From the IMG/VR virus record IMGVR_UViG_3300043449_000492, positions 1 to 64,000 of that record: a DNA stretch of 64,000 nucleotides; one strand, written 5' to 3'. The translations under genes and the position numbers were made by a program. Under the pieces are notes generated by a model. It was not told where the DNA came from, searched no databases, and saw only the letters and a program-made list of their open reading frames with translations. Shown in pieces: positions 56,863 to 60,544 of this stretch. How positions within the stretch are numbered: the stretch's first letter is position 1; the number at the start of each line of letters is the position of its first letter. This DNA is from a virus.

Positions 56863-59547
56863 ATGTTCATTATGCCACCCACAATGCCTATCAAAGTTGT
56901 GGAGCTTTCAACAAATACAAACAATGTTGACTTATATGCAGAATCAGGAAGTCCAGATTTTGCTATAGGAGTGGTGGCTAATGTCTCTGCAACAATCGGA
57001 AGCACATCAACATCAGCAGCTTTGAGAACTAATACAGGCTGGGCTGATGGTTCTTGGCTTTATATTAACAATCTAGGTACGATCAATGGTGGTACTGGCG
57101 CACCTGGTGCAACTGGTTCAACTGGTATCCCTGGTGCAACAGGTGGCACAGGACTTCCAGGAACACCTGGCAATAATGGAACACCCGGCAATACAGGATC
57201 ATCTGGTATCCCTGGTGCAACTGGTGGCACAGGTGCTGCAGGTATCCCTGGTGCAACTGGAAGTACCGGTATCCCTGGTGCAACTGGTGGTACTGGTGCT
57301 GCAGGTATCCCTGGTGCAAGAGGAACTCCAGGTATTCCTGGTGCAACTGGTGGCACAGGTGCTGCAGGTATCCCTGGTGCAACTGGAAGTACCGGTATCC
57401 CTGGTGCAACTGGTGGTACTGGTGCTGCAGGTATCCCTGGTGCAACAGGTTCTCCTGGTACTCCAGGAGCAAGGGGAACCCCAGGTATTCCAGGTGCAAG
57501 AGGATCTACAGGATTAAACGGAATTCCCGGAAATACAGGATCATCTGGTATCCCTGGTGCTGTCGGCATCGGCGGCCTGGGAGGTCAAGGAGGATCAGCA
57601 GCAGGACCACCAACACCATATCTAGGACTTCCTGGGAGAACAGGTCTTGCTGGCAGTCCGGGAACTACTGGAGGATCGGGAACACCCGGAACTAACGCTA
57701 CTCCTGGTGGAACTGGACTTCCGGGCACTACTGGTGGCACAGGACTTCCAGGAGCAACAGGCGGTACTGGACTAGCAGGAACACCTGGTGCAACAGGTGG
57801 CACAGGAATCCCTGGCGCAACTGGTGGAACAGGACTAGCAGGAACACCTGGTGCAACTGGTGGTACTGGACTACCTGGCACTACAGGTGGCACAGGATTA
57901 AACGGAACGCCTGGTGCAACAGGTGGAACAGGACTTCCAGGAGCAACTGGTGGAACAGGATTAGCTGGAACACCAGGAGCAACAGGTGGCACAGGAATCC
58001 CAGGTGCAACAGGCGGAACGGGACTACCTGGTAATACAGGAATCCCTGGCGCAACTGGTGGAACAGGATTAGCTGGAACACCAGGAGCAACAGGTGGCAC
58101 AGGAATCCCAGGAGCAACAGGTGGTGTATCATTACAAGTTGATGCTGTAACCAACTTAATCGTTCTTGTCAAAAATGTAACAGGCACTCTAACAGGCGGC
58201 ACAGGCGGTCTCGGTGGAACCGGCGGTCTCGGAGGCATTGGTGGTCCAGGTGGTATCGGTGGTCAAGGCGGTATCGCAGGTTCTGGAGGTTTAGCAGGAT
58301 TAGGCGGACTTGGTGGCATAGGTGGCATCGGAGGTATTGGTGGTATCGGTGGTCTAGCTGGCATTGGTGGCCCTGGTGGTATTGGTGGCCCCGGTGGCAT
58401 CGGTGGCATCGGCGGTGCAGCTGGACTTGGAGGAATTGGCGGCGCAGCCGGTCTTGGTGGCATCGGAGGTATTGGTGGTCTAGGCGGAATTGGCGGCACA
58501 GGCGGTATTGGTGGCCCTGGTGGTATTGGCGGAATTGGTGGTCTAGCAGGCATCGGAGGCCAAGGAGGCATTGGTGGCCCTGGTGGTATCGGTGGTGCAG
58601 CTGGCCCTGGCGGTCCCGGCGGCATCGGCGGCGCAGCTGGACCTGGTGGTCCAGGTGGCATCGGTGGACTTGGTGGTGGTGGAGGAGGAGGAGGCGGTGG
58701 CGCCTCCACGCAGCAGCTGGCAGGATCAGGTGGTGGCGGAGGTGCGATCTTGGGCGTCGGCGGCGCCCGTGGCGGCCCGCCATCTGCACTTATTAGCCAA
58801 GGTTTCGCAGGAATTCCGGGCACATCGACGGGCGGCGCCGGAGGTCCAGGATTTATTTTTCAACCTTCACCGCTTATAAGAGGCGGTCCCGGAGGTTCAG
58901 GCGGCAATTTAGGAACTCCTGGTTCAGCAGGAATTCCTGGTTCTGGTCCAGGTGTGACAGGTACTACAGGAGGGAATGCAGGACTAGCCGGTAGTTCAGG
59001 TCTTACGGGCCCTACAGGACCATCGGGACTAGCAGGAACACCTGGTGCAACAGGACCATCAGGAATTGCAGGCGCAACAGGATTAGTGTCGGGAACACCG
59101 GGAGCAAGAGGACCTACAGGTACAGCTGGAACACCAGGAGCAACAGGACTAGCAGGAACACCGGGAGCAAGAGGACCTACAGGTACAGCCGGAACACCAG
59201 GAGCAACAGGATCATCAGGAATCGCAGGCGCAACAGGACCATCGGGACTAGCTGGAACACCAGGAGCAACAGGACTAGCTGGAACACCGGGCGCAAGAGG
59301 ACCTTCAGGACTAGCTGGAACACCAGGAGCAACAGGACTAGCAGGAACACCGGGAGCAAGAGGACCTTCAGGACTAGCAGGCCTATCAGGAACACCAGGA
59401 GCAACAGGACCATCGGGACTAGCTGGAACACCAGGAGCAACAGGACTAGCTGGAACACCGGGCGTCAGAGGTAATGCCATCACAGGTAATACAAATATAA
59501 CTTGGATCGGAGGCGACCTCGGAACAATCACAGGACCTGTGGCATAG
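56863..59547 (+). CDS. Collagen-like / polyglycine fibre protein
   Basis: 894 residues; AAGGAG upstream. The N-terminal ~75 residues are a globular attachment domain. Then Gly-X-Y triplets: units such as [15 protein letters not shown] and GLA-GTP-GAT (about residues 77-235, 255-420 and 680-870), with Pro almost always in the Y position. A central block (about 445-620) is Gly-Gly-X (GGI-GGP-GGL), the polyglycine-II type. [10 protein letters not shown] interrupts at about 630. Short C-terminus [12 protein letters not shown]. Expected to trimerise into a long rod. A prolyl-hydroxylase-like gene follows two genes on. Confidence 0.9.
57091..59470 (+). repeat. Collagen-type and Gly-Gly-X tandem repeats
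   Basis: Gly-X-Y blocks at about 57091-57570, 57625-58125 and 58895-59470; Gly-Gly-X block at about 58195-58730. Underlying DNA repeats are long (for example a 60-bp GCAGGTATCCCTGGTGCAAC-led unit recurs near 57238, 57298, 57361 and 57427), so recombination could change length readily. Confidence 0.9.
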
Positions 59548-59563
59548 TAATAGGGAGAAACTA

Positions 59564-59917
59564 ATGAACCTAAAATATCGTATTCTTAGAGTAAACGCAG
59601 AAGATCATTCATTCGCCGTAAGATACTTTACAGATATTCTTACAGAAGATTTGCTTTGTAGTTATTTTGACGCAGACGGAAACATTGTTAGAGATGAAAA
59701 CAATTATCCTTTGTCATGTAAGACCGATACAAATGTAACAATTTTCAATAATCCTAATCCTTCTCAAGATGATATTATCAAACTAGTTACAGACTATTCA
59801 TCTACAATGAAAGATTATCTGGCAATTCTTGAACTTCAGCTACAACCCAACGCAGTGGAACGAATGGCAAATGTAACATCACTAGTGAATACAACAGGAG
59901 TTATCACACTCGATTAA
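59564..59917 (+). CDS. Small protein between collagen-like fibre and hydroxylase
   Basis: 117 residues; AGGGAGAAA upstream. RYFTDILTEDLLCSYFDADGNIVRDENNYPLSCKTDTNVTIFNNP gives a mixed alpha/beta fold that I recall near phage fibre genes, followed by a helix with LELQLQPNAVERM. It may be a fibre assembly chaperone. No catalytic motif. Confidence 0.6.
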   Translation: MNLKYRILRVNAEDHSFAVRYFTDILTEDLLCSYFDADGNIVRDENNYPLSCKTDTNVTIFNNPNPSQDDIIKLVTDYSSTMKDYLAILELQLQPNAVERMANVTSLVNTTGVITLD

Positions 59918-59926
59918 GGATATATT

Positions 59927-60544
59927 ATGTATAAGTCGTTATGTAACAATACGTTTGAGAGAAATCGTGTCACATATCAAACATGTTGGTGGGATAATGC
60001 TTTCAATGATGATGAATTAAACAAACTAATAAATCTTTGTGACGATTCATTGTTAGAAAGAGCAGGAACTATAGGTGAACAAAATGCAGATCAGACAAGA
60101 CTTATTAGAAGATCAAAGGTAAAGTTTATTGAAAGAGACTGTGCAAGTTCATGGATTTTTGATAGATTCAATGATGTTGGCGCCAAACTAAATGAACAGT
60201 TTTATGGTTTCAATCTTTATGGTTATGATAGTTTTCAATATACGGTATATGAGGGAACTGATCAAGGCGAATATAATTGGCACATGGACATGGAATTAGG
60301 CGGATCAACTATGGAACTCACTCGTAAGATGACAATGGTTCTTTTACTTAGTGAGCAGGGTAAAGACTTCTTAGGAGGTGATTTTGAAGTTACGATGGGT
60401 AATCAAAATACACCAGATAGAGTTGACACTAGAAAAGGTCGCATAGTTGCTTTTCCTTCTTTTCTCTTGCATCGTGTTAAACCTATCACAATGGGAGTTA
60501 GAAAGTCTATTGTAATTTGGATCACAGGTCCTAAGTTTATATAA
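59927..60544 (+). CDS. 2-oxoglutarate/Fe(II) oxygenase, prolyl-hydroxylase-like
   Basis: 205 residues, a single catalytic domain of PKHD/prolyl-4-hydroxylase type. Iron ligands: His119 and Asp121 in NWHMDME and His182 in LLHRVKP; Arg192/Lys193 (VRKSIVIW) would bind the 2-oxoglutarate carboxylate. FQYTVYEG precedes the first ligand as usual, and LSEQGKDFLGGDFEV is the conserved central strand. These enzymes hydroxylate proline or other residues using O2 and 2-oxoglutarate. The gene starts 380 bp after the collagen-like fibre gene, whose Y-position prolines are natural substrates for such enzymes. PKHD enzymes also occur elsewhere in T4-like phages, so this pairing is inference. Confidence 0.88.
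   Translation: MYKSLCNNTFERNRVTYQTCWWDNAFNDDELNKLINLCDDSLLERAGTIGEQNADQTRLIRRSKVKFIERDCASSWIFDRFNDVGAKLNEQFYGFNLYGYDSFQYTVYEGTDQGEYNWHMDMELGGSTMELTRKMTMVLLLSEQGKDFLGGDFEVTMGNQNTPDRVDTRKGRIVAFPSFLLHRVKPITMGVRKSIVIWITGPKFI

Follow-up and report, generated by a model that had tools for sequence, protein, structure and literature searches.

Collagen-like tail fibres composed of Gly-X-Y repeats, as is the fibre described here, occur in E. coli prophages as the EPclA type, in which Pro occupies 48% of X positions and 7% of Y positions (PMC3368898). Bacterial and viral collagens are said to do without hydroxyproline, and the authors of that study state that collagen prolyl hydroxylases are absent from bacteria and viruses (PMC3368898). 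The bacterial prolyl 4-hydroxylase of Bacillus anthracis (BaP4H) hydroxylates collagen-like peptides and favours the Y position (PMC8968730). The algal (chlorella) virus PBCV-1 encodes its own prolyl 4-hydroxylase, and a passage of PMC9301287 cites Eriksson 1999 for evidence of 4-hydroxyproline in PBCV-1 proteins. The use that marine viruses make of prolyl 4-hydroxylase genes ‘remains cryptic’ (PMC9301287). Mimivirus also pairs collagen with a collagen-modifying oxygenase, but it is a eukaryotic giant virus and the modification is of lysine: passages in PMC9546862 and PMC5802723 describe its collagens together with a lysyl hydroxylase. No report of a phage cassette combining a collagen with a hydroxylase was found in the openly licensed papers searched.

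The locus described here is in a window of 64,000 nucleotides from a 169-kb virus record (IMG/VR IMGVR_UViG_3300043449_000492) whose baseplate, neck, and tail genes are T4-like. The source virus is an uncultured, marine-type phage. Its neck protein is closest to those of cyanophages among annotated phages (38%), and an ORF of the NUMOD3/homing-endonuclease kind (61917–62591) is flanked by two neck genes. The window also contains a tmRNA gene (15077–15454, tag AANDNAPFEGYALAA), here carried by a phage. The record holds a single collagen gene, one clear PF13640 gene, and one weak PF13640 match. Its features are as follows.

56863..59547, + strand: collagen-like, Gly-rich tail fibre, 894 aa (ORF list, profile and triplet counts)
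56863..57087, + strand: fibre N-terminal domain, aa 1–75, motif RPxKVVxxSS..NNVNLYT.AGSP, which marks a fibre family of uncultured phages
57088..57600, + strand: collagen arm 1, aa 76–246; 57 perfect triplets, Pro 20 in Y and 0 in X (triplet count)
57625..58128, + strand: collagen arm 2, aa 255–422; 55 triplets, Pro 17 in Y and 0 in X (triplet count)
58195..58701, + strand: Gly-Gly-X block, aa 445–613, with a probable likeness to polyglycine-II repeats
58702..58971, + strand: poly-Gly stretches split by variable loops, aa 614–703, a layout shared with relatives; possibly a receptor-binding tip
58972..59478, + strand: C-terminal collagen arm, aa 704–872; 56 triplets, Pro 12 in Y and 9 in X (triplet count)
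59479..59547, + strand: conserved C-terminus GNxxxGNxNIxxIxxGTxxGP and stop codon (fibre-family comparison)
59564..59917, + strand: small 117-aa protein of a family kept near this fibre family; possibly a fibre chaperone
59927..60544, + strand: 2OG-Fe(II) oxygenase, 205 aa, ligands H119, D121, H182, and R192 (PF13640, phrog_61, alignment)

Fibre and oxygenase are as the preliminary description had them. The same description placed the oxygenase about 380 bp after the fibre; the interval is indeed 379 bp, but it contains a conserved gene that had been overlooked, encoding the 117-aa protein. The three genes lie on one strand with spacers of 16 bp and 9 bp. Among complete loci of the fibre family the small gene usually begins 0–24 bp 3′ of the fibre, with one exception at 797 bp (L616). 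The small protein has no match in Pfam, PHROG, or NCBIfam and none among phage records, and the fibre N-terminal domain (query L480) gave one weak partial match (E=4e-3) against 50,697 phage records; on these two grounds, no isolate of the window type was found. One tail gene of the window likewise has no match among phage records.

The fibre matches the Pfam collagen family PF01391 in four stretches (1.7e-17; 63.4 bits against a cut-off of 27.2). Its perfect Gly-X-Y runs comprise 175 canonical triplets with 51 Pro in Y and 10 in X, distributed over aa 76–246 (57 triplets, Y 20/X 0), 255–278 (8, 3/0), 282–422 (47, 14/0), 675–695 (7, 2/1), 704–742 (13, 1/3), and 744–872 (43, 11/6). The expectation that Pro lies mainly in Y is therefore exact for the two N-terminal arms (37 in Y, 0 in X) and weak for the C-terminal arm, which shows little Y preference. 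Pro fills 33% of Y positions and 0% of X positions in the N-terminal arms; published values for Y are 9.3% in viral, 3.7% in Gram-positive, and 34–42% in human collagens, with 22–31% for X (PMC3368898, Table 4). By this comparison of composition, the N-terminal arms are animal-like in the Y position. The arms consist of imperfect 63-bp (seven-triplet) repeats, so single Pro sites are not independent and chance statistics on them would mislead. The ∼170 residues of aa 445–613, likewise overlooked in the preliminary description, are Gly-Gly-X or Gly-X-Gly and contain no canonical collagen; this block and the loops that follow resemble T4-type gp38 and polyglycine-II adhesins in sequence pattern only. 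A second Gly-rich protein of 316 aa, lacking a collagen register, is encoded elsewhere in the window (52685–53635).

The 205-aa enzyme matches PF13640 at 3.5e-14 (54 bits against a cut-off of 27) and phrog_61 at 5e-25. It thus shares a broad family with the phrog_61 oxygenases of cyanophages, but it is at most ∼38% identical to phage records, and those relatives are mostly not beside collagen. In an alignment of 64 oxygenases, H119 and H182 are present in all sequences, D121 in 61 (Glu in the other three), and position 192 is Arg in 57 and Lys in four. The prolyl-hydroxylase ligand set attributed to the window enzyme is thus complete, but it is common to the whole superfamily, and the Arg differs from the residue typical of collagen prolyl 4-hydroxylases (P4Hs). 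In those enzymes a Lys anchors the C5-carboxylate of 2OG, as it does in BaP4H and in the PBCV-1 P4H. With Arg192 at this anchor, the window enzyme departs in this residue from the collagen P4Hs (P4HA/BaP4H type); judged from the alignment, its 2OG-binding Arg is of the PHD/PKHD type.

The best score against the NCBIfam PKHD equivalogs (NF003972–NF003975) is 41.4 bits, with a cut-off of 143. Searched against the PDB, the 64-sequence profile finds the PKHD-type hydroxylases YbiX/PiuC as its closest solved relatives (PKHD/PiuC 1e-16). These share the Arg anchor but are cellular enzymes, and the window enzyme lies far below the equivalog cut-offs. B. anthracis P4H, also cellular, follows at 1.3e-13, then the virus-encoded PBCV-1 P4H (5c5t) at 8.5e-13, which differs in coming from an algal virus, an algal P4H at 5e-12, prolyl 3-hydroxylase 1 (P3H1) at 6e-9, and PHD2 at ∼1e-7. 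No AlkB, TET, or DNA-repair oxygenase is among the PDB matches of this profile. Judged by profile, the closest kin of the enzyme are PKHD enzymes and hydroxylases of protein prolines, and not DNA-acting oxygenases.

To follow the fibre itself, we retrieved 36 records through its N-terminal domain only. Twenty-seven of them carry an oxygenase, 26 detected through PF13640 and one (L642) through our own oxygenase profile. In eight of the nine others the fibre apparently leaves the contig (L643 judged by position), whereas in the ninth (L614) 3.8 kb of sequence follow downstream. Counting records with a complete fibre, the oxygenase is present in 27 of 28, which bears out the co-occurrence in related phages that had been proposed as a check. 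The 25 non-redundant fibres of the family, window included, hold 203 Pro in Y and 106 in X when pooled; Y exceeds X in 18 and the reverse is true in six. One X-Pro-rich member (L641; 29 X-Pro, 3 Y-Pro) has its oxygenase 425 bp away. Relatives of the enzyme with 46–50% identity (L001–L008, IMG/VR) directly adjoin Gly-rich fibres whose two terminal domains are those of the window fibre, and in a set of close enzyme relatives (L001–L007, L013, L014, L017, L019, and L512) the adjacent fibres have only 0–2 Y-Pro. Most of the L001–L008 fibres are almost free of Y-Pro. The comparison thus points to the fibre as the partner of the enzyme, and away from Y-Pro being its sole target.

We then scanned IMG/VR with DNA patterns of Gly-X-Pro and Gly-Pro-Y runs, so that loci were chosen for their register, irrespective of any oxygenase. 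A minimum of 20 canonical triplets left 20 Y-dominant, 95 X-dominant, and 25 mixed loci. PF13640 was present in 18/20 Y-Pro records, as against 19/87 X-Pro and 3/24 mixed records searched (Fisher 2e-8), counts inflated by kinship in that the 20 Y records reduce to ∼17 at 80% enzyme identity. The Y-Pro ‘exceptions’ L184 and L370, apparently low-complexity or wrong-frame ORFs, were left in the counts. Because cyanophages hold many PF13640 genes, presence alone is weak, and we added an adjacency measure and a neck-gene control. An oxygenase lies within 100 bp of the fibre at 12/20 Y-dominant and 2/95 X-dominant loci (p=1.6e-9), and within 1 kb at 13/20 and 8/95. Almost every pair shares a strand, in either gene order, and most gaps measure 6–30 bp. 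An oxygenase is also close to some of the X-Pro collagens.

The neck-gene control used loci of related phages retrieved through the neck protein only. Where 3 kb upstream was available, six loci had both an oxygenase and a Gly fibre, one an oxygenase alone, 13 a fibre alone, and 32 neither (p=0.007); requiring 9 kb left 20 loci, with p=0.57 for co-occurrence. Collagens picked in this way contain 2033 X-Pro and 16 Y-Pro in 3237 triplets when no oxygenase is nearby, compared with 245 X-Pro and 53 Y-Pro in 745 triplets when one is (p=0.009). In L510, whose neck protein is 72% identical, fibre, small gene, and oxygenase are all absent from the site and a different fibre is found instead. A 735-kb metagenomic phage holds collagen triplets by the thousand and one PF13640 gene, which is distant; the pieces read show almost no Y-Pro. 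Taken across these genomes, the partnership of fibre and oxygenase is real and conserved. Y-Pro in viral collagens is strongly associated with the oxygenase: Y positions rich in Pro are almost confined to viruses that encode one, usually as a neighbour.

A tree of 105 oxygenases places the neighbours of Y-Pro, X-Pro, and poly-Gly proteins in distinct clusters. The Y labels change nine times on this tree and 19 times in shuffles, and shared descent contributes to the clustering. Y-Pro pairing nevertheless recurs with unrelated fibre N-termini and in at least two far-apart oxygenase clades, in one of which (L127, L162, and L200) Glu replaces the ligand Asp. For the Y-clade enzyme there is no isolate above 40% identity, and for that of L208 none at 1e-30. 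A scan of bacterial bins with the oxygenase profile returned three loci only.

The reading in the preliminary description, of a virion rod that hydroxyproline stabilises, is partly supported by these results. We consider the oxygenase to be probably a hydroxylase dedicated to the fibre, most likely acting on X-Pro-Gly. The reaction would be hydroxylation of the Pro that precedes Gly, at Y within the collagen arms; GGP repeats may also be substrates. Its timing would be early, on nascent chains before the trimer folds. The resulting hydroxyproline would make Pro favourable in the Y position, as in animal collagen, and the arms of the tail fibre would gain stability. The main rival is that the enzyme hydroxylates another residue of the fibre (Asn, Asp, Lys, or Thr) in the conserved ends, tip loops, or arms, and that Y-Pro enrichment is secondary. 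Its best support comes from loci of near enzyme relatives, where the pairing is kept although Y-Pro is almost absent; the pairing is also kept beside X-Pro collagens, and pelagimyophages count an aspartyl/asparaginyl beta-hydroxylase among their core proteins (PMC7029224). This rival leaves the selectivity of Y-Pro for enzyme-bearing loci unexplained, and the closest solved enzymes of known substrate are mostly prolyl hydroxylases; we regard it as unlikely, though worth keeping in view.

Prolyl hydroxylation of the fibre must also be weighed against readings in which the fibre is not the substrate. The preliminary description had named as counter-evidence the regular occurrence of homologous oxygenases, acting on DNA or other proteins, in phages without collagen-like fibres. 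Half of this is borne out. Distant homologues are common in cyanophages that have no collagen: seven cyanophage isolates examined carry 5–13 PF13640 genes each, and five of the seven have no PF01391 match. In addition, near relatives of the window keep the oxygenase with fibres in which Y-Pro is almost gone. The cyanophage counts favour an auxiliary metabolic enzyme acting on a host protein, nucleic acid, or small molecule, its adjacency reflecting a tendency of cargo genes to gather around the tail fibres of marine T4-like phages; modulation of 2OG or DNA repair has been proposed earlier (PMC3037559). Same-strand gaps of 6–30 bp, pairing with one fibre family in 27/28 records, and the link to Pro register make such a role rather improbable here. 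Related 2OG oxygenases of one family directly follow the gp12 short tail fibre gene in Syn1 (L645, 8914–9642) and the capsid gene in QB2 (L646, 8950–9573). In isolates S-8S53 and S-PRM1, a collagen fibre of the X-Pro kind, a small gene, and three oxygenases stand in a row. With the cyanophage cases, these indicate that the roles of the superfamily are wider and perhaps extend to virion proteins generally. Least probable is an artefact of lineage, in which phages with many 2OG oxygenases favour Y-Pro collagen through codon use or ancestry. The loci are related and the oxygenase clades do track phage lineages, but the link appears among related phages in the neck-gene control, the pairing recurs across unrelated fibre N-termini and enzyme clades, and in one phage, L208, a Y-Pro collagen is 0.8 kb and an X-Pro collagen 5 kb from the oxygenase.

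If the link between Pro register and oxygenase reflects fibre hydroxylation, phages may make hydroxyproline-stabilised collagen. The link would explain both the reported lack of hydroxyproline in viral collagens (PMC3368898) and the cryptic use of marine-virus prolyl 4-hydroxylase genes (PMC9301287), and would tell what some members of a very abundant but unexplained class of phage genes act on. It also offers many natural enzyme–collagen pairs. More speculatively, and with somewhat less than even confidence, we suggest that tailed phages have repeatedly evolved fibre–hydroxylase cassettes with enzyme clades matched to Pro register (Y-Pro clades and separate X-Pro clades), and that hydroxyproline is a regular material of some virions.

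Several loci met in the survey are unusual in their own right. One (L478:2-7174, record G002), perhaps from a eukaryotic virus, carries a collagen ORF of 2391 aa that is still open where the stretch ends; its 626 triplets contain 375 Y-Pro against 1 X-Pro, and an oxygenase lies 2.2 kb off. In two Y-Pro fibres (L477:4684-6384 and L172:7250-9223) a long Arg/Ser/Gln-rich insert splits the collagen parts, and at two other loci (L489:10853-14021 and L200:3223-4400) one Y-Pro fibre is accompanied by two or three different oxygenases in tandem. The 735-kb phage (LR756501; L600, L601, and L604) encodes several collagen ORFs of 2000–3500 aa that are rich in Gly-Thr-X or Gly-Pro-X.
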